From positions 1 through 64,000 of the forward strand of contig JAISHF010000004.1 in the NCBI GenBank assembly GCA_031262695.1: a stretch of 64,000 nucleotides of DNA. Direction: 5' to 3'. Below are positions 370 to 60,984 of this stretch, in pieces; within the stretch, counting starts at the first letter, position 1; every line of letters starts with the position of its first letter. This stretch comes from Candidatus Nomurabacteria bacterium. Lineage in GTDB: Bacteria; Patescibacteriota; Saccharimonadia; Saccharimonadales; Saccharimonadaceae. Both the position numbers and the translations under genes were made by a program. The notes under the pieces were generated by a model. The model worked only from the letters and a program-made list of their open reading frames with translations. It was not told the origin of the DNA and did not search any database.

Positions 370-2277
370 ATGAGTAAAATTATTGGAATTGACCTCGGGA
401 CGACTAACTCGGCGTTCGCTTATATGGTGGCGGGTAAGCCAGAGGTGATTACGAATGCCGAGGGCGACCGCACCACACCGAGCGTGGTGGCGCAGACGAA
501 AAAGGGCGAGCGGCTGGTCGGCAAAATTGCCCAGCGGCAACGGGTGACCAACCCAAAAAACACGATTTATAGTGTGAAGCGCTTGATTGGCCGGCAATAT
601 GGCGACGACGAGGTGCAACGCGACCTGAAAATTATGCCTTACGAGATTGTGAAAAAGGGCGACGGCGTGGCGGTAGAAATGGACGGCAAGGACTTTACGC
701 CAGAGGAAATTTCGGCGATGGTGCTTAGCAAAATCAAGGCGGATGCCGAGGCGTTCTTGGGCGAGAAGGTGACCGAGGCGATTATTACCGTGCCGGCTTA
801 TTTCAACGACCAACAGCGGCAGGCGACCAAGGACGCAGGTAAAATTGCGGGCTTGGAAGTCAAGCGGATTATTAACGAGCCAACCGCGGCGGCCTTGGCC
901 TACGGCTTGGACAGCAAAAAAGACGAAAAGATTGCTGTGTTTGACCTCGGTGGCGGCACATTTGACGTGTCCATTTTGGAACTTGGCGACGGCGTCTTTG
1001 AGGTGAAGAGTACCAACGGCGATACGCACCTTGGTGGTGAGGATTTTGACAATGTGATTGTGAATTACTTGATTGACACCTTTAAGTCGGAGAGCGGGAT
1101 TGATTTGAAGAACGATCCAGCGGCGATGCAACGGATTAAGGATGAGGCCGAGAAGGCGAAAAAGGAGTTGTCGTCTGCGACTTCGGTGGATATTAATTTG
1201 CCGTTTATTACGGCGGATGCGGACGGGCCAAAGCACTTTGAACACACGTTGACGCGGGCAAAATTGGAGGAATTGACTTCTGGTTTGCTGGACCGCTTGG
1301 CGGTGCCAGTGGAGAAGGCCTTGAAAGACGCAAAATTGACCGCAAAAGACATTGACGAGGTAGTGTTGGTTGGTGGTATGACCCGTATGCCAGCAGTGGT
1401 GGAACGGGTGAAGAAGATTTTTGGTAAGGATCCAATGCAGGGGGTGAACCCTGATGAGGTGGTGGCGGTTGGTGCGGCGATTCAGGGCGGCGTGTTGCAG
1501 GGTGATGTCAAGGATATTTTGTTGCTTGATGTGACACCGCTGACGCTCGGGATTGAGACGGCTGGCAATGTGCGGACGCCGATGATTGACCGCAACAGCA
1601 CAATTCCGACTTCTAAATCGCAGACTTTCTCAACTTTTAGCGACAACCAGCCACAGGTGGAAATCCACGTCTTGCAGGGCGAGCGGGAGTTTGCGCGCGA
1701 CAACAAGTCGCTTGGCACGTTTGTGCTGGACGGGATTGCACCAGCGCCGCGTGGCGTGCCGCAAATTGAAGTGACTTTTAATCTTGACGCGAACGGTATC
1801 TTGAATGTGACGGCAAAAGATAAGGGGACGGGCAAGGAGCAGTCAATTACGATTCAGGGGTCGGGCAATATGAGCAAAGAGGATGTAGAGAAGGCGCGGG
1901 CGGAGGCCGAGGCGCACGCCGAGGAAGATAAGCGTAAGCGTGAGGTCGTGGATGCGCGCAACCACTTGGAAAATACGATTTATCAGGCCGAGAAAATGCC
2001 GACTGAGTTTGCGGAGAAGATTAGCGACGAGGACAAAGAAAATGTGAAAAAGGCGGTTGAGGACGCAAAAACTAAGTTGACTTCAGAAGATAAGGATGAG
2101 TTGGAGCAGGCGGCAAAGGACTTGAATGAGCGAATTATGCCGATTGGCGCGAAACTCTACAAAGAGGCGGGTGCGGCTGGCGGTGCAGCGGGTGCCGAGG
2201 GTGCTGGTGCGACTGGTGCGGCTGCGGCTGAGGCGACTGACGGCGACGCAGTTGAGGGTGAAGTCGTTGGCAAATAA
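370..2277 (+). CDS. dnaK: Chaperone protein DnaK (Hsp70)
   Basis: ATP-dependent Hsp70 chaperone of the cytoplasm that works with DnaJ and GrpE. The 635 residues match the family length. The N-terminal ATPase domain starts [11 protein letters not shown] and has the phosphate-2 loop [10 protein letters not shown] near residue 195 and the adenosine motif VGGMTRMP near 338. The interdomain linker is ILLLDVTPL near 385, followed by the peptide-binding domain and a helical lid with a Gly/Ala-rich tail. The ATG follows an AGAAGGAG ribosome site. Two CIRCE-like operators lie upstream. No grpE or dnaJ is adjacent. The 3' end abuts rsmD. Confidence 0.98.
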
Positions 2278-2329
2278 GCAAAACGCTAGGGCTAGCGTGG
2301 TGCGTAGCGGTAGGCACGCTACATCTAGT

Positions 2330-3001
2330 GTGCGGGTTATTGCAGGTAAGTTTAAGGGGCTTCGGTTAGAAGCCCCTTCGGCCGATGCGGCACACGTGAT
2401 GGGCGAGCGAGAGCGGGGGGCGATTTTTAATGCGTTATTTTCGCTTGGCGGTTTTGAAGGGGCGAGAGTTTTGGACGTGTTTGCTGGGTCGGGGGCGCTT
2501 GGGTTGGAGGCAGTTTCGCGCGGGGCGGCGTCAGTGGAATTTGTGGAGAATAATCCAAAAACTCGCGAGATAATAAAGAACAATATAAGCGCAATTTTGC
2601 CTACGCCCGCTCGCTCTACGACTTCCCTCGGGCACGAGGGCGCTAGCGCCCCTCTTGGCGCCGCTACCGCGTCGCCAATTCACCCCGCAGTGCCCTCGGG
2701 AAGTGTAGAGCCTCGCGGGCTAGACATCAACCCTCGCAGCACCCTTGGTGAAAGCAACTCGCGCGGAGCCGAACAGCAATATGAGATTATTTTTAGCGAT
2801 GCGCCGTACGATAAGCCGCAGTGGGGGTTAGTGGCGGAGCTGCCTGGGCGGCTGGCGAGTGGCGGAAAACTGGTGATTTCGCATGCGAAAACGACGCCGA
2901 TTCCTGATGAGTTGGTGGCGGATTTTGCGAGTTTGGGGCTGGAAAAAGTTTATGAGAAGACTTTTGCAGCGGCGGAGATTGAGATTTTTCGCAAAAAGTA
3001 A
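2330..3001 (+). CDS. rsmD: 16S rRNA (guanine-966-N2)-methyltransferase RsmD, with in-frame palindromic insert
   Basis: SAM-dependent methyltransferase of 16S rRNA. The start VRVIAGKFKG matches the family N-terminus, so GTG 2330 is chosen. In-frame GTG 2297/2300 and TTG 2267, the last overlapping dnaK, are alternatives, and none has a strong ribosome site. Motif I is LDVFAGSGALGLEA and the catalytic motif is SDAPYD (family usually DPPY). Residues about 92-147 do not look like RsmD. They are encoded by a GC-rich palindromic element (2605-2772) that also occurs in three other genes here, and the frame stays open through it. The protein otherwise looks intact. Confidence 0.9.
   Translation: MRVIAGKFKGLRLEAPSADAAHVMGERERGAIFNALFSLGGFEGARVLDVFAGSGALGLEAVSRGAASVEFVENNPKTREIIKNNISAILPTPARSTTSLGHEGASAPLGAATASPIHPAVPSGSVEPRGLDINPRSTLGESNSRGAEQQYEIIFSDAPYDKPQWGLVAELPGRLASGGKLVISHAKTTPIPDELVADFASLGLEKVYEKTFAAAEIEIFRKK
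2605..2772 (+). repeat. In-frame palindromic element, copy 1 (in rsmD), composite
   Basis: Left arm 2605-2635 pairs with right arm 2690-2720 over about 27 of 31 positions. Between them are two hairpins: GAGGGCGC-TA-GCGCCCCTC and TTGGCGCCGC/GCGTCGCCAA. A partial second 3' half (2731-2772) ends GCGCGGAGCCGA, like copy 2. It is read in a different frame from copies 3 and 4. Confidence 0.85.
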
Positions 3002-7735: not shown

Positions 7736-7851
7736 TCGATTACGCCGAAGCGCCTTATTGTATCTACAGCATACCAAACTCGGGGCGAGTTGTCAAGGGG
7801 CGACCAGTTTTTAGGAAATGTTGTAAATTGCGAGAAAATAGGCAAAAACTA

Positions 7852-7985
7852 TTGACTTTTAAGCACGAGTGTGATATAATGATAATAAGAAGAGGTTTCG
7901 CAACGACTTGTTAAAGCATTCGCGGAACTGATCCGTGAACTTTAACTTGTGAAGTATGCGACCTCAAATTTTAGGAGGTTATTTT
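7852..7985 (+). promoter_or_regulatory. Promoter and structured leader of the 7986 gene
   Basis: TTGACT (7852-7857), 17-base spacer with AAGCACGAGTGTGA, TATAAT (7875-7880). The leader folds into an outer stem GAGGT..CGCA / TGCGACCTC enclosing GTTAAAG/CTTTAAC and an inner CGGA/TCCG hairpin, then a TTAGGAGG ribosome site. The fold could be a regulatory leader. I do not recognise it as a known riboswitch. Confidence 0.65.
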
Positions 7986-10288: not shown

Positions 10289-10443
10289 AGTGAAAACCTC
10301 CTAAAAATATTCGAGTTTGGCCCTCGTTGGCCGTGCGCCGTTGATACTTCACAATACTAATGTCCGGTCGTCCGGACTAGTATAGAAGCTCGATCCGGAT
10401 CGACTCACACTTTCATTATATCACACTCGTGCTTAAAAGTCAA
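10289..10443 (-). promoter_or_regulatory. Promoter and leader of the 9743 gene
   Basis: Minus-strand TTGACT (10443-10438), 17 bases, TATAAT (10420-10415). The roughly 125-base leader has hairpins TCGATCCGGATCGA and GTCCGGACGACCGGAC. The stretch 10444-10640 holds no gene that I can support. Confidence 0.65.
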
Positions 10444-10657
10444 TAGTTTTGGCAGGTTTTGTGGGAAAATTGGGGTGATATTTTGCAATAACCCCTGTAA
10501 GATGTCAAGTTGATTTTTATACAAAATGTGGTGCAAAGTTTGCAAAAATGTGTTGTAATACTGTGGAAAAGTGGGGGATAAATCCACAAGATAGGGGCAG
10601 GGCGACAAAAAGGCGGGCGAATTTGGCAAAAGTTGGGGTTGTGATATAATAAAGTAA

Positions 10658-12454
10658 ATGGGCAAAGAAATTATTCATGTAGAGGTAGATGAGGATATTG
10701 CGGCGGTGATTAGCCGCGTGATGGCGGCGAACGAGCAGGTGGTGGCGGTGGTAGCGCCGAAGAATTTGGGGGCATTGCGTAGCGCGATGAACTTGAAATT
10801 GCTGAAAAAGGCGGCAAAAAGTGCTGGCAAGATTGTGGCAGTGGTATCTGATAGCCCTGTGATGCGGACTTTGGCAGGGGTGGCAGGCGTGCCGCTGGCG
10901 GCGAGTTTGCAGAGTAAGCCAGAGGTGCCAGAGATAGAGAGTGCGCCAGAGGGGCAGTTGGTGGCAGAGGAGTTGGCGGTGGGCGAGGGGCTGAGCTGGG
11001 CAACTTCTGCTAGCGAGCTTTCGCAAGGTAGCCGCTCGGGTGCGGCGTCGGCTCAGCCCGTCGCCACGGGTGAGCCGCGCCTCTCTCTTGGTCTGCCGGC
11101 CTCCGAGACGCCCCTCGCGGCCACCTTGCAAGAAAGCTCGCGCGGAGCCGAAAACGACGAAAGCGACGAAATCGGCCCGTCGGCGACAAAAAATCGGCGA
11201 TGGACGGCATTGACGGCAAAGGTAGATACGCTGTGGAAGAAGGTGTTGGTAGGGGGTGGATTGCTGGTTGGGGCGATTTTGATTGGGGTTTTGGTGCTGT
11301 TTTTGCTGGTTAGGCCGAGTGCGACAGTAGAGATTGCGACGGTGATGCAGACGATTGACGTGCGGAGTGAGGTGCGATTTAAGGTGAAAGATAATAACGT
11401 TGAGGGTGGGCTATTTCAGTTGACGGAGCAGTCATTAGGGGTGGAGCAAGCAGAGGAGTTTGAGGCGACGGGGGAGAAACTGGTGGGCGAGAAGGCGAAG
11501 GGGACGGTCAGTGTGAGCTATTGTGGTTCGCCGCAGACACTGACGACGCAACAATATTTTGAAGGTGCTGGTAAACGTTTTTATTTGGATAAGCAGGTTA
11601 CCTTGGATGGTGCGCTGTGTGCTGATGGTAGCTGGAAGTCGGCGTCGCTGGAGGTGACGGCAGCTGATATGGGCGAAGAGTTTAACGAGCCCGACAGTAA
11701 TAGCATGGCGTTTTCAGGCGATCCGTTTAGCTATCAGACTAAAGTGATAGCAACCAGCATCAGCGGCGGCACTAAACAGACGGTCAAGGTGGTGTCGGAG
11801 GAGGATGTGAAGAATGCAACGGAGCGGTTGGATACTTTGAGTATTGAAGAGGGGCGTTCGCGACTAAAAGCGTCGCTTGCAGATGATTTGTATGCGTTTG
11901 ACTTGACATTTTTGGCGGAAAGTGGCAACGTAGAGGTGTCGCCAAAGGTGGGTGAGACGGTGGCGGACGGCACGAAGGCGACGATTAAGCGGATGCAGAC
12001 TTATAAAATTATGACGGCAAGCAAGCCAGATATGGAGCAGTTTGCACGGAGTTTGGCGGAAAAGCAGGCGGACGGTAAGAAGATTTATCAGATTGGCAGT
12101 TTTGCGGATGGCGGGCTATTTTTGGAGCGAGCGATGATTACGGCACAGACGGGAGGGACGATTTGCCCAGAGGCGCCAGCGGAAACGCCAGAGGGAGGCG
12201 AGCCGTGCGTGCCAAAAACTGGCATAGTCAGCGAGATGACGGCACTACTCAAAACGGTGGCGACGGCGGGCGACGATATTTCGGAGAGCGAGATTGCGGC
12301 TGTGGTGAAGGGGCAAAAACTGAGTGATGCAAACCGTTTGGCAATGGAGGCGAAGGGCGTACAGCGGGTGAGTATTACCTTGAAGCCGTTTTGGGCCAGT
12401 CGCTTGCCAGAGGATATTTCGCGGATTACGGTTAAGATTCAGGCGGACCAATAA
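10658..12454 (+). CDS. Baseplate-J/gp47-like membrane protein, with in-frame palindromic insert
   Basis: 598 residues. The N-terminal domain (IIHVEVDEDIAAVISRVMAA..VVAVVAPKN, about 1-95) and overall layout match Patescibacteria proteins I recall being annotated baseplate J/gp47 family. A linker containing the palindromic element (residues about 117-164) leads to one membrane helix (about 200-225) and a large outside beta-rich domain. The start is ATG 10658, seven bases after TATAAT, so it is probably leaderless. Its TAA stop overlaps the ruvX ATG, suggesting coupled translation. Role unknown, perhaps cell envelope. Confidence 0.8.
   Translation: MGKEIIHVEVDEDIAAVISRVMAANEQVVAVVAPKNLGALRSAMNLKLLKKAAKSAGKIVAVVSDSPVMRTLAGVAGVPLAASLQSKPEVPEIESAPEGQLVAEELAVGEGLSWATSASELSQGSRSGAASAQPVATGEPRLSLGLPASETPLAATLQESSRGAENDESDEIGPSATKNRRWTALTAKVDTLWKKVLVGGGLLVGAILIGVLVLFLLVRPSATVEIATVMQTIDVRSEVRFKVKDNNVEGGLFQLTEQSLGVEQAEEFEATGEKLVGEKAKGTVSVSYCGSPQTLTTQQYFEGAGKRFYLDKQVTLDGALCADGSWKSASLEVTAADMGEEFNEPDSNSMAFSGDPFSYQTKVIATSISGGTKQTVKVVSEEDVKNATERLDTLSIEEGRSRLKASLADDLYAFDLTFLAESGNVEVSPKVGETVADGTKATIKRMQTYKIMTASKPDMEQFARSLAEKQADGKKIYQIGSFADGGLFLERAMITAQTGGTICPEAPAETPEGGEPCVPKTGIVSEMTALLKTVATAGDDISESEIAAVVKGQKLSDANRLAMEAKGVQRVSITLKPFWASRLPEDISRITVKIQADQ
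11009..11150 (+). repeat. In-frame palindromic element, copy 2 (in baseplate-J-like gene)
   Basis: Left arm from 11013 (GCGAGCTTTC, GCAAGGTAGCCGC) pairs with the right arm to 11141 (GCGGCCACCTTGC, GAAAGCTCGC). The inner hairpin 11050-11076 is GGCTCA-G-CCCGT/ACGGGTGAGCC. The 3' end GCGCGGAGCCGA is shared with copy 1. The primary sequence differs strongly from copies 3 and 4, but the layout is the same. Confidence 0.8.
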
Positions 12455-14957: not shown

Positions 14958-16343
14958 ATGTTTATAGATACGGCGAAAGTGATTGTGCGTGCGGGGCGGG
15001 GCGGTGATGGTGCGGTTAGTTTTCGGCATGAGATTTATGTGGATAAGGGCGGCCCAGACGGTGGCAATGGTGGCAAGGGCGGTGATGTGATATTTCTGGC
15101 GTCTAAGGATGAGAACACTTTGCTGTCGTTTCGTTATAATCCAGAACTTTTTGCGGGCGATGGCTTGGCTGGTGCGGGGCGGCAGGCGGCAGGTAGGAGT
15201 GGCAAAGATTTGGTGGTGAAAGTGCCAGTCGGGACGATTGTGCGACGAGTGGTAAAGGGTGCGGATGATGAGGGCGAGATATTGGCGGATTTGACTTTTG
15301 ATGGCGAGCGGGCAGTGATTGCTAGAGGTGGTGCTGGTGGATTTGGTAATGCGCATTTTAAGTCCAGCGTGCGGCAGGCGCCAAAAGTGGCGGAGCTGGG
15401 TCTCGCTGGGGAGAGCTTTGACGCGGTTTTGGAGTTGCGTTTACTTGCGGATGTGGGGTTGGTCGGGTTCCCGAATGCGGGTAAGTCATCATTTTTGGCG
15501 GTGGTGACGAATGCTAAGCCTGAGATTGCTGACTATGAGTTTACGACTTTGTCGCCGAATTTGGGTGTAGCGACGATTGACGGGCGGGATATTTTGATTG
15601 CCGATATTCCAGGGCTAATTGAAGGCGCGGGTGACGGTAAGGGACTTGGCACGGCGTTTTTGCGGCATATTAAGCGGACGAAGGTGATTTTGCATTTGAT
15701 TGATGCTTATTCGGACGACGTGGTAGGGCGATACAAGGCGATTCGGGCGGAGCTCGGCAAGTTTGACGCGGCACTTTTGGAACGACCAGAGGTGGTGGCG
15801 CTGACGAAGACTGAGGGTTTTGACGCGGAATTATTGGAAATGCAAATTTCGGCCCTCCGCGCAGCGACAAATTCGCCGATTTTGGCGATTTCGGCGCAGG
15901 CACACAGCGGGCTTGACGCTGTTTTGCGAGAGGTTGTAAAATTACTGTCGGCTCCTGTCGCGAGTTCTTCCACCTCGGGCACAACCGCAGGGCGCTTGGC
16001 GCCCCTCTTGGCAGAGCAGAGCTCTGCCAATTCACCCCGCAGTGCCCTCGGTGAAAGCAACTCGCGCGAGGAGATTGCGACGATTACGCTACCAGAGAGC
16101 AAGCGAGCAAAGGGCTTTACGGTGGAGAAAAATGACGATGCGTTTGTGGTGCGAGGGGCGGAGATTGAGCGGTTTGCGATGAAGACCGATTTGGCAAACT
16201 ATGATTCGGCGAATCGATTGCGCGATATTATGAAAAAGTTGGGGGTGACGGCGGCGTTGCGAAAACTTGGGGCGGAGTCCGAGAGTTTGGTGCGAATTGC
16301 CGAGCGCGAATTGCCGCTCATCGAGCCGCCGCGGGAGTATTAG
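14958..16343 (+). CDS. obgE: GTPase ObgE/CgtA, with in-frame palindromic insert
   Basis: Essential ribosome-assembly GTPase. The N-terminal Obg fold has the expected Gly-rich GGDGAVSFRHE and GGNGGKGGDV motifs. G1 is GFPNAGKSSF (near residue 170), G3 is DIPGLIEGA, G4 is TKTE, and an OCT domain is at the C-terminus. Residues about 330-371, between the G domain and OCT, are encoded by the palindromic element and read SAPVASSSTSGTTAGRLAPL followed by more low-complexity sequence. The start is ATG 14958, five bases after TATAAT, so it is probably leaderless. rlmH follows directly. Confidence 0.95.
   Translation: MFIDTAKVIVRAGRGGDGAVSFRHEIYVDKGGPDGGNGGKGGDVIFLASKDENTLLSFRYNPELFAGDGLAGAGRQAAGRSGKDLVVKVPVGTIVRRVVKGADDEGEILADLTFDGERAVIARGGAGGFGNAHFKSSVRQAPKVAELGLAGESFDAVLELRLLADVGLVGFPNAGKSSFLAVVTNAKPEIADYEFTTLSPNLGVATIDGRDILIADIPGLIEGAGDGKGLGTAFLRHIKRTKVILHLIDAYSDDVVGRYKAIRAELGKFDAALLERPEVVALTKTEGFDAELLEMQISALRAATNSPILAISAQAHSGLDAVLREVVKLLSAPVASSSTSGTTAGRLAPLLAEQSSANSPRSALGESNSREEIATITLPESKRAKGFTVEKNDDAFVVRGAEIERFAMKTDLANYDSANRLRDIMKKLGVTAALRKLGAESESLVRIAERELPLIEPPREY
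15948..16072 (+). repeat. In-frame palindromic element, copy 3 (in obgE)
   Basis: Outer arms 15960-15982 and 16042-16065 pair over about 20 positions (GCGAGTT..CTCGGGCAC with GTGCCCTCGG..AACTCGC). Inner hairpin 1 is GGGCGC-TTG-GCGCCC (15990-16004). Inner hairpin 2 is TTGGCAGAGC-AGA-GCTCTGCCAA (16008-16030). Same orientation and frame as copy 4. Confidence 0.9.
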
Positions 16344-21458: not shown

Positions 21459-21623
21459 ATGGTTGAAGCAAAAGATAATAATGTAGATGATGTGCTAGAT
21501 ACGAGCGAGCAGCCAGCGGCGGACGGCTACTATGGCGAAGAAATGGCCATGGATGGCGATTTGGACATTAGTTTTTTGGATGATGACGACGAGTCGGTAG
21601 ACCACGACAGTTATGACGATTAA
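21459..21623 (+). CDS. Small acidic protein (54 residues)
   Basis: Starts MVEAKDNNVDDVLDTSEQ and ends in Asp-rich DDDDESVDHDSYDD. The ATG follows AAAGGAGG, and a promoter TTGACA, 16 bases, TAAAAT lies just upstream, so it is likely expressed. It overlaps the start of the glycosyltransferase gene by 11 bases, implying coupled translation. Family not recognised. Confidence 0.65.
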   Translation: MVEAKDNNVDDVLDTSEQPAADGYYGEEMAMDGDLDISFLDDDDESVDHDSYDD

Positions 21624-22914
21624 GCACCCTTTAAGGGTGGCGTTGGTAGTGCCGCATGTGTTTATGGGCGACGAGTTGCGTGAGCAGGTGATTTTTTCGC
21701 CAGGTGAACTCGCGCGAGAGTTTGCCAATGCGGATTGGGGTGATATTTTAGCGTCTTGCGGGGTTTTTGTAGGCATTGCCTCGGAAGGCGCTAAAATATC
21801 ACTCACTTTGTTTACGCCGCTACCTGTTAAGTGCAAGGCGCCAACAGTGGTGGCGGATTATTCTGGCTTTGAGCGGGAGTTGGCTGGGCGGGGCTATGGT
21901 TATTTGGAGTTGCTAAAAAAGCACCCGTCGTTATTTGTGGCTTTGAGTAGGCAGTTACAGGGGGAGATTATCGCCTCGGCGTTTGCGCGGGCAAATGCGG
22001 GCGAGTTTGATTTGGTGCATATTTATACCAACGAAGAGGATCAGGCACTGATTTTTGCGGATTTGTGCCGTGTACCAGTGGTTTTTACGCATCACGACCC
22101 CTATAATTTTTTGATTAAATATAAGAGTGTGTTTCCGCAGTATCGGGGGCGGAATTTTGTGTCAATGTCGTTGGCGCAGCAGCGGACGGCGCCAGAGGGG
22201 ACGAATTTTGTGGCGAATATCTATCATGGGGTTAGGTTGTCGGCTCCTGTTGCGAATTGTCGCCCCGAAGGCACGAACACAGGGCGCTTAGCGCCCCTCT
22301 TGGCAGAGCAAAGCTCTGCCAATTCACCCCGCAGTGCCTTCGGGGCGATGAATTCGCACGGAGCCAAAAATACTACCCCATATTTCATCTATGTCGGGCG
22401 GATTATTGAGCCGAAGGGGGTGCATTTGGCGATTGCGGCAGCAGAGAGGGCGGGAGTTAATCTGAAAATTGTCGGCAAAAGGTATGACGATAATTATTTT
22501 GAGCGGGAGATTGCGACGCATTTAGAGGGCACAGGAGGGGCCTCTCGCAAAAAAGGTGGCAAAATTGAATATTTGGGGTTCAAACGCGGAGAAGCGCTCC
22601 AGACGCTTGTGGCAGGGGCAAGGGGGCTGTTAATGCCGTCGCAATTTGAAGAACCGTTCGGAATGACCGCTATTGAGGCGCTCGCGGTGGGCACGCCGGT
22701 GATTGCAAGTCGCAATGGGGCGCTACCAGAGATAATTGAAGAGGGTAAAAGTGGGTTTTTTGCTGATTCGGTGGATGAAATGGCGGCGAAAATGGCAAAA
22801 ATTGACGAAATTAGGCCCGAAAATTGCGTTAAACGGGTAAAAGAGCAGTTTTCGCTGGAGAAAATGCTTGCAGAACACGCGAAATTGTGGCTAAAATTGG
22901 CAAAAAAGTCATAA
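21613..22914 (+). CDS. Glycosyltransferase family 4 protein, with two palindromic inserts
   Basis: 433 residues. The C-terminal GT-B half has FIYVGRIIEPKGVHLAI, GKRYDDNYF, EYLGFKRGEALQTLV and the nucleotide-sugar motif PSQFEEPFGMTAIEALAVGT. The N-terminal half has FTHHDPYNF. The sugar and acceptor are unknown; envelope glycan synthesis is likely given galU nearby. Residues about 210-251 come from the palindromic element (copy 4). Another 14-bp palindrome (21740-21802) encodes extra residues near 43-63. Translation overlaps the 54-residue gene upstream. Confidence 0.88.
   Translation: MTIKHPLRVALVVPHVFMGDELREQVIFSPGELAREFANADWGDILASCGVFVGIASEGAKISLTLFTPLPVKCKAPTVVADYSGFERELAGRGYGYLELLKKHPSLFVALSRQLQGEIIASAFARANAGEFDLVHIYTNEEDQALIFADLCRVPVVFTHHDPYNFLIKYKSVFPQYRGRNFVSMSLAQQRTAPEGTNFVANIYHGVRLSAPVANCRPEGTNTGRLAPLLAEQSSANSPRSAFGAMNSHGAKNTTPYFIYVGRIIEPKGVHLAIAAAERAGVNLKIVGKRYDDNYFEREIATHLEGTGGASRKKGGKIEYLGFKRGEALQTLVAGARGLLMPSQFEEPFGMTAIEALAVGTPVIASRNGALPEIIEEGKSGFFADSVDEMAAKMAKIDEIRPENCVKRVKEQFSLEKMLAEHAKLWLKLAKKS
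21740..21802. repeat. Second in-frame palindrome in the GT4 gene
   Basis: Perfect 14-bp inverted repeat GTGATATTTTAGCG (21740-21753) and CGCTAAAATATCAC (21789-21802), with a weaker inner pairing. It encodes DILASCGVFVGIASEGAKIS where GT4 proteins usually have a shorter helix-strand link. Its A/T-rich arms differ from the four-copy family. Confidence 0.5.
22242..22365 (+). repeat. In-frame palindromic element, copy 4 (in GT4 gene)
   Basis: Outer arms 22242-22274 and 22334-22365 pair almost fully (GGCTCC with GGAGCC, TCGCCCCGAAGGCAC with GTGCCTTCGGGGCGA). Inner hairpins are GGGCGC-TTA-GCGCCC (22282-22296) and TTGGCAGAGC-AAA-GCTCTGCCAA (22300-22322). The inner part is nearly identical to copy 3, while the outer arms differ in a paired way. 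Confidence 0.9.
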
Positions 22915-27795: not shown

Positions 27796-27874
27796 AGTTT
27801 TTCTTTTAGAAAGAAAAACTACCTAAAGAGATCTAATTAAGAAAATTAGGTCAGAGTGAATCTGACCTAATTTT
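27796..27874 (+). repeat. Two-hairpin intergenic repeat, copy 1
   Basis: Hairpin 1 AGTTTTTCTTT/AAAGAAAAACT, then CCTAAAGAG, then hairpin 2 AAAATTAGGTCAGA/TCTGACCTAATTTT with loop GTGAA. Probably also terminates the 26866 gene. Confidence 0.75.
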
Positions 27875-28471: not shown

Positions 28472-28552
28472 CGGTTTTCTTTTTAGAAAAGAAAACCGCC
28501 TAAGAAAACCTAGTTATAAAATTCAATCCAAAATGAATTTGGCTTGAATTTT
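28472..28552 (+). repeat. Two-hairpin intergenic repeat, copy 2
   Basis: CGGTTTTCTTTT/AAAAGAAAACCG, then CCTAAGAAAA, then AAAATTCAA..CCAAA / TTTGG.TTGAATTTT with an AATGAAT loop. It lies on the 5' side of tRNA-Cys. Confidence 0.75.
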
Positions 28553-46552: not shown

Positions 46553-46631
46553 CAGTTTTCTTTTAGAAAAAGAAAACTGCCTAAGAAAATTAGTTAAGAA
46601 AAATCGGCAAGAGTAAATATTGCCGATTTTT
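46553..46631 (+). repeat. Two-hairpin intergenic repeat, copy 4
   Basis: CAGTTTTCTTTT/AAAGAAAACTG, CCTAAGAAAATTAG, then AAAATCGGCAA/TTGCCGATTTT with loop GAGTAAATA. A further hairpin AAAATCAGCCAA/TTGGCTGATTTT follows (46659-46692). Confidence 0.8.
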
Positions 46632-47077: not shown

Positions 47078-47132
47078 CAAAAGACCTCCTTAGAGATTGG
47101 AATGCGACACGGTTTTCAGCGTGTCTTATTAC

Positions 47133-47161
47133 AGTATATCACACTTATGCATAAAAGTCAA
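47133..47161 (-). promoter_or_regulatory. Promoter of the 46697 gene
   Basis: Minus-strand TTGACT (47161-47156), 17 bases with ATGCATAAGTGTGA, TATACT (47138-47133). Confidence 0.7.
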
Positions 47162-47169
47162 GAGCCATT

Positions 47170-47250
47170 CAATTTTTCTTTTAAGAAAAGAAAAATTGCT
47201 TAAAGAAAATAGTTAAGAAAAATCGGCAAGAATAAATATTGCCGATTTTT
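47170..47250 (+). repeat. Two-hairpin intergenic repeat, copy 5
   Basis: CAATTTTTCTTTT/AAAAGAAAAATTG, then AAATAGTTAAG, then AAAATCGGCAA/TTGCCGATTTTT. Hairpin 2 is nearly identical to copy 4. Confidence 0.8.
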
Positions 47251-52320: not shown

Positions 52321-52442
52321 GAGATTATTATATCAAAACCGTTTTACAAAAGCAAGCCAATTTTCCACCTATTTCAGCCCAATTTTGCACATTTTTGCAC
52401 ACTTTTTTACCCCTATAAATCCCACAAAATATGCCAAAGCTA

Positions 52443-52578
52443 TTGACTTTTAAGCATAAGTGTGATATAATGGAGTTGTTATGGAGGTAATAACCGCCAT
52501 ACGCACCAACAACAGTTAGTTAGCTTCCCCAGTTTGGGACAATTTTTGTTGTCTTAAAAGGGCAGAAAGTGTGATTCT
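52443..52578 (+). promoter_or_regulatory. Promoter and structured leader of the 52579 gene
   Basis: TTGACT (52443-52448), 17 bases with AAGCATAAGTGTGA, TATAAT (52466-52471). The leader starts with GTTGTT/AACAAC enclosing ATGG.GG/CC.CCAT. A weak ribosome site (GGGCAGAAAG) precedes ATG. Confidence 0.65.
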
Positions 52579-60904: not shown

Positions 60905-60984
60905 GCGAACTTTTCTTGGGAAGAAAAGTTCGGTAAAAGAACCCAGTTATATAAAATGAGCAAAAGTAAATATTGCCCATTTTA
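60905..60984 (+). repeat. Two-hairpin intergenic repeat, copy 7
   Basis: CGAACTTTTCTT/AAGAAAAGTTCG, AACCCAGTTATA spacer, then ATAAAATGAGCAA/TATTGCCCATTTTAT with loop AAGTAA. On the 5' side of tRNA-Gln. Confidence 0.75.

Follow-up and report, generated by a model that had tools for sequence, protein, structure and literature searches.

Among the repeats described to date, the palindromic elements of Rickettsia (RPEs) and Wolbachia (WPEs) are, by description, the closest known kind to the element analyzed here. According to two reports, these palindromes of 100-150 bp are dispersed in intergenic regions and in frame within conserved genes, and they form several families that often occupy similar sites in orthologues (PMC3767692, PMC10969869). 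Coding palindromes have so far been a curiosity of Rickettsia and Wolbachia without a known mobilization mechanism. For coding palindromes of nematomorph mitochondria, template switching has been proposed as the origin (PMC6649704). A further report describes how the orientation of IS200/IS605 elements follows replication, with the single-stranded lagging-strand template being used, and how an orientation bias is also known for clamp-binding transposases of several IS families (PMC5371812).

The window (the whole 64,000-nucleotide stretch of DNA that was analyzed) contains a 142-bp palindrome at positions 11009-11150 that is probably a non-autonomous mobile DNA hairpin of the coding-palindrome type, conserved as DNA and oriented by replication. 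The palindrome is real, and its sequence is as first described. Its arms and inner GGCTCA..TGAGCC, pointed out in an earlier note, are borne out by the predicted fold of positions 10995-11165, whose energy is -94.5 kcal/mol versus -73.5 +/- 4.7 in dinucleotide shuffles (z -4.4), with 0 of 200 shuffles as low. An outer stem, formed approximately by the two arms listed in Table 1, encloses hairpins A and B, and the peptide PVATG is read from the apical CCCGTCGCCACGGG on both strands. Pfam, NCBIfam, and PHROGs lend no support to the name "baseplate-J-like" that the host gene had been given. The site had also been described as a permissive linker before a membrane helix, which agrees with what is seen: the linker is variable and has no match to this element family in congeners, and a hydrophobic stretch, VLVGGGLLVGAILIGVLVLFLLV, follows downstream of the insert (by eye).

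Table 1. Features of the palindromic element, its host gene, and related elements in the window
Feature	Position	Strand	Evidence
fam2 element in rsmD (ORF 2126-3001), near-identical to the copy in a dnaX-like gene at C3:80663	2624..2702	+	
Truncated 3' remnant of another fam2 element in rsmD	about 2732..2772	+	adjoins the intact rsmD element
Host ORF (P0001), 598 aa, membrane-anchored, without profile match; element in variable linker	10658..12454	+	
5' outer arm, copy-specific	11013..11036	+	minimum-energy fold: pairs with 11117-11141; arm score 13 for the 11034-11120 copy
fam1 core, 87 nt: outer closing pairs and two hairpins	11034..11120	+	covariance model R1, 95.7 bits, E 3.3e-22 (window, filters off)
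Hairpin A, contains GGCTCA..TGAGCC and apical CCCGTCGCCACGGG	11044..11081	+	fold; helices 2-3, 93-94% of cells paired
Hairpin B (CTTGGTCTGCCGGCCTCCGAG)	11087..11107	+	fold; helices 4-5, 99-100% of cells paired
3' outer arm, copy-specific	11117..11141	+	minimum-energy fold; arm scoring
Terminal GCGCGGAGCCGA, also in the truncated rsmD remnant	11140..11151	+	exact match at 2761 and 11140
fam2 element in linker of Obg-type GTPase gene (ORF 14958-16343)	15971..16054	+	
fam2 element in glycosyltransferase gene (ORF 21613-22914)	22263..22346	+	

The element belongs to a dispersed family, here called fam1. BLASTN reveals four further copies in the 652-kb genome (E 1.7e-13 to 4.4e-8): one each in trxB, der, and leuS, those in der and leuS being antisense, and one next to a tRNA gene. 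The covariance model R1 was built from the five fam1 cores of this genome, and copies were located by search, with examination confined to the stretches around matches. R1 matches 5 copies in the window genome. Three congeners have 4, 18, and 13, genomes G004 and G027 from two other genera have 10 and 11, and a handful of further genomes have single or weak copies; most of the family, and the sampled other families of the order, gave no match. At E <= 1e-4, R1 finds matches in 14 of 362 genomes across the phylum, eight of which are in other families and have weaker copies. Such patchy spread is expected of a mobile repeat. BLASTN against phage and plasmid collections gave no match to the element. 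A single fam1 pattern match in viral contigs is attributed to chance in a GC-rich phage, where the covariance model gives no support. Elsewhere in the phylum, a different family has a weak fam1 match (L340 1457-1625, G274 C13) that is intergenic, follows an RNase J-like gene, and has perfect arms of 27 bp. The idea that its perfect arm is an inverted copy of a ribosome-binding site was dropped, as the downstream ORF has only 22 aa.

A second family, fam2, has about 16 copies in the window genome and is limited to the window's genus among the relatives searched. The 3' end that the earlier note had matched to rsmD is indeed common to both sites, although it closes the truncated rsmD remnant and not the intact element. 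A covariance search run in both directions relates the families weakly or not at all: with filters off, R1 scores 18.7 bits (E 0.017) on the rsmD copy and leaves the 15.9-kb and 22.2-kb copies unreported, and a fam2 model finds no match at E <= 10 on 11034-11120. In a joint MAFFT alignment, the cores of fam1 and fam2 are not in register. The families have in common the terminal GCGCGGAGCCGA, the plan of arms plus two hairpins, and replication-locked orientation, but essentially not the core. They also use the same host loops in different species, namely in obg, a class I tRNA synthetase gene, rsmD, and dnaX. Fam1 and fam2 may be subfamilies or convergent users of one mechanism. The earlier proposal of subfamilies holds up, whereas the view of 11009-11150 as no more than a diverged copy of the rsmD-type element needs correction: it is a typical fam1 member, and the family has dozens of copies in the genus and family.

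Most fam1 copies fall within conserved genes (trxB, der, leuS, obg, and others) whose frame stays open, and 45 of 59 are in ORFs of at least 170 codons (24 antisense, 21 sense). Because an open frame was itself the criterion for calling a copy "coding", counting in-frame copies involves some circularity; a measure free of this is that non-host frames over the copies are open only 27% of the time. Hosts recognized by Pfam include a thioredoxin-reductase-like protein, an EngA/Der-type GTPase, an Obg-type C-terminal domain (DUF1967), TruB, a glycosyltransferase, a phosphoketolase, an RsmD-type methyltransferase, and two class I tRNA synthetases, one of which has an anticodon domain and is LeuRS by closest structure. 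A host with a 5'-3' exonuclease domain (sub-cut-off) reads as PolA, and DnaX, DprA, and LigA hosts were named by eye. Orthologue alignments, with one genome per species, reveal that the truB site is empty in G001 and G003, and that several species carry different elements in the same loop of trxB, leuS, obg, and der; obg, for example, contains fam2 in the window genome and fam1 in G002, G003, and G004. Compared with homologues of solved structure, TrxB has a net gain of 28-32 aa and LeuRS one of 27 aa. These values are near the 29 aa of the core, which implies that the insert is the 87-nt core and not the core with its arms. The gains of 49 aa in Der and 37-38 aa in the fam2 copy of TruB exceed the core, so arms or linker are included there.

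Other repeats are also present in the window. A 24-nt inverted repeat with a 15-nt gap (21740-21802) lies inside a gene, is unrelated to fam1 and fam2, and is possibly a decayed element. A promoter-like repeat, TTGACTTTTAAGCATAAGTGTGATATAATG, occurs at 318-360, 7849-7881, 10411-10446, 47132-47164, 52440-52472, and other sites, in both orientations, and sites agree exactly over as many as 33 nt. An AT-rich intergenic repeat of 76 nt is present in five copies (27799-27874, 28475-28550, 46556-46631, 47175-47250, and 60909-60984), which have an inverted repeat of their own and are possibly leaders or terminators.

Outside the fam1 core, the flanks are complementary in a copy-specific manner. Flanks of 60 nt score 13.8 when paired with their own partner versus 7.0 when paired across copies within a genome (p 6e-28). 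The flanks differ from copy to copy, and the ends of fam1 are not conserved. An arm score of at least 14 occurs at about 0.25% of random sites. One intergenic copy in G002 (C4:31522) is between two divergent -35-like boxes, other intergenic copies are within terminator-like stems, and some intergenic arms look like natural palindromes. Inside genes, growth of the arms by template switching is more likely, because natural palindromes are too rare there and the arms overlie the gene's own codons.

The orientation of fam1 is set by replication and not by transcription. The model strand lies on the G-rich strand, taken as the leading strand, in 51 of 53 copies of the genus (p 3e-13), although these copies are not fully independent, as some are recent duplicates. 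The rule applies to copies that are sense to their host gene (23 of 24), antisense (17 of 18), or intergenic (11 of 11). GC skew has one sign in every element-carrying contig region of the window genome, and it is very strong along window positions 1-64000 (+0.20 to +0.38). Because the fam1 core is C-rich on the G-rich strand, fitting to the local skew does not explain the bias. The rule is established for one genus: in G004, where skew is near zero, the bias is weak or mixed, and in G027 it amounts to 6 of 10 copies. An orientation fixed by replication suggests that the element inserts, or is copied, at the fork in the form of folded single-stranded DNA.

An ordinary miniature inverted-repeat transposable element (MITE) might account for some of these observations. 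Such an element would be what deletion has left of a DNA transposon, with GGCTCC..GGAGCC as its terminal inverted repeats. It would have been moved by a DDE-type transposase that was missed or lost, and its bias would arise through contact of that transposase with the sliding clamp, in line with the clamp-binding transposases cited above. Some fam2 copies do have common inverted ends (for example, TCGGCTCC..GGAGCCGA), and the rsmD copy is near-identical to the dnaX-like copy over its full length. However, most fam1 copies have only their copy-specific complementary flanks in place of common ends, a target-site duplication is not evident by eye at the rsmD/dnaX-like pair, and no long relative with a transposase gene was seen around any copy. 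The associated mobilizing enzyme that the earlier note suggested looking for was not found in searches for Y1, IS110, and reverse-transcriptase proteins: Y1_Tnp (PF01797) has 0 matches in G000-G005, G013, and G027 (G000 being the window genome), IS110 transposase is absent from all 61 genomes searched, and reverse transcriptases, present in G000, G002, and G003, do not track copy number. RAYT, IS110, and reverse transcriptases were rejected as mobilizers on these grounds. An ordinary MITE is an unlikely explanation.

A mobile DNA hairpin is also favored over a structured RNA by the pattern of covariation. In the 63 R1 matches aligned from the stretches searched, double compensatory changes occur in 26 of 29 base pairs, and the covariation score is 0.591 versus 0.191. 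Paired cells amount to 92.3%, compared with 68.7 +/- 0.7 in shuffles; because the alignment was fitted to the model, the shuffle control and a slide control (pairing of at most 53% when one side is moved by 1-3 columns) outweigh the raw figure. An RNA read from one strand would be expected to retain G-U over A-C pairs, whereas a DNA hairpin or cruciform has no such preference. Among about 1390 cells of helices 2-5, 1317 are Watson-Crick, 9 are G-U, and 12 are A-C. Since A-C is as rare as G-U, the fam1 fold is maintained as a DNA structure and not as RNA. The strong covariation, and the T runs that follow several intergenic copies in a terminator-like manner, could otherwise have suggested a functional RNA dispersed in transcripts, such as a terminator or a regulatory or processing element. 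Yet the copies within genes are antisense as often as sense, and no Rfam family matches the element at the gathering threshold or at E 0.5. A functional RNA is therefore very improbable.

The core motif of fam2, CTCTTGGC-loop-GCCAATTCACC, is present at window positions 2652, 16005, and 22297, and also at loci L054-L169, L215, and L223. It is a dispersed repeat in Rhodobacteraceae, with 4-72 exact copies per genome tested, and has 30 copies in Acutalibacter sp. 1XD8-33; a reversed control pattern gave zero matches. A G4-loop-C4-TCTTGGC..GCCAATTCACCCC plan is found again across phyla. In the viral contigs L226, L230, L239, L244, L228, and L237, the motif adjoins a DGR-type reverse transcriptase gene, and in several of these contigs it lies directly at the end of the presumed variable-protein gene, where it may be a cis hairpin of DGR retroelements. 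The two reverse-transcriptase loci of the window genome (C1:174218-178292 and C5:155-1993; L266 and L267) are probably diversity-generating retroelements, one of which has an FGE-like presumed variable protein.

These phage contigs and the two reverse transcriptases of the window genome raise the idea that the fam2 hairpin is related to DGR-side hairpins and was spread by such a reverse transcriptase. We consider this scarcely probable, as no reverse transcriptase was detected in G001, G004, and G027, which have 4-11 fam1 copies, and the reverse-transcriptase loci of the window genome have no adjoining copy. Least probable of all are old, vertically inherited insertions that drifted in sequence while keeping their fold, with little or no recent mobility: antisense fam1 copies do occupy the same linker of der in G000, G001, and G002, but obg, the class I tRNA synthetase gene, and rsmD differ between species in family or orientation, and near-identical copies occupy separate genes within a single genome (rsmD/dnaX-like in G000, obg/dnaX-like in G002).

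The mobile DNA hairpin that we favor would operate as follows. A core of about 85-90 nt, with two hairpins on a closing stem, would enter loops or linkers of genes as well as intergenic palindromes, perhaps by being inserted or copied as folded single-stranded DNA at the replication fork. Translation of a core that lies within a gene would add a peptide of about 29 residues in frame, which is presumably tolerated rather than useful. The arms might exist because the core lands in existing quasi-palindromes or because template switching extends the palindrome into the flanks after insertion. A bolder proposal, which we regard as tentative and rather doubtful, is that a transposase-free palindrome copies itself into the genome at forks in the form of folded single-stranded DNA and grows into the flanking gene through template switching, and that its core motif (that of fam2) recurs in unrelated phyla and phages. 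If this were true, a palindrome without a transposase would not only be a mobile element but would also generate copy-specific palindromes.

Replication-locked elements conserved at the DNA level in a reduced-genome lineage make it testable how coding palindromes move, with single-stranded DNA at the fork as the candidate route. In addition, essential enzymes repeatedly take up selfish peptides at the same loops. Judging from genome size and gene content, the host probably belongs to the Saccharibacteria. No paper was found that ties palindromic elements to the host lineage.

In comparison with known systems, the element resembles RPEs in being palindromic, 142 bp long, multi-copy (5 fam1 and about 16 fam2 copies), and dispersed, both in frame in unrelated conserved genes and between genes. 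It differs in its phylum; in its arms, as RPE arms are described in one report as losing repeat identity over time (PMC6649704), whereas here double changes preserve pairing; and in its replication-locked orientation, which was not found discussed for RPEs in the portions of the literature consulted. REPs and REPINs, which are associated with RAYT (TnpA_REP, a Y1 enzyme), are likewise short dispersed DNA hairpins and are probably single-stranded DNA substrates, but REPs are extragenic, and the element-rich genomes here lack a Y1_Tnp gene. IS200/IS605 elements and their non-autonomous derivatives have subterminal hairpins and an orientation that follows replication, as do the genus copies here, yet these copies have no Y1 HUH transposase, no conserved fam1 ends, and only copy-specific flank complementarity. 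The coding palindromes of nematomorph mitochondria are also perfect inverted repeats in coding sequence with both arms translated (PMC6649704), but they have no conserved dispersed core. Coding palindromes that combine replication-locked orientation with covariation at the DNA level are new, and the phylum is new for elements of this type.
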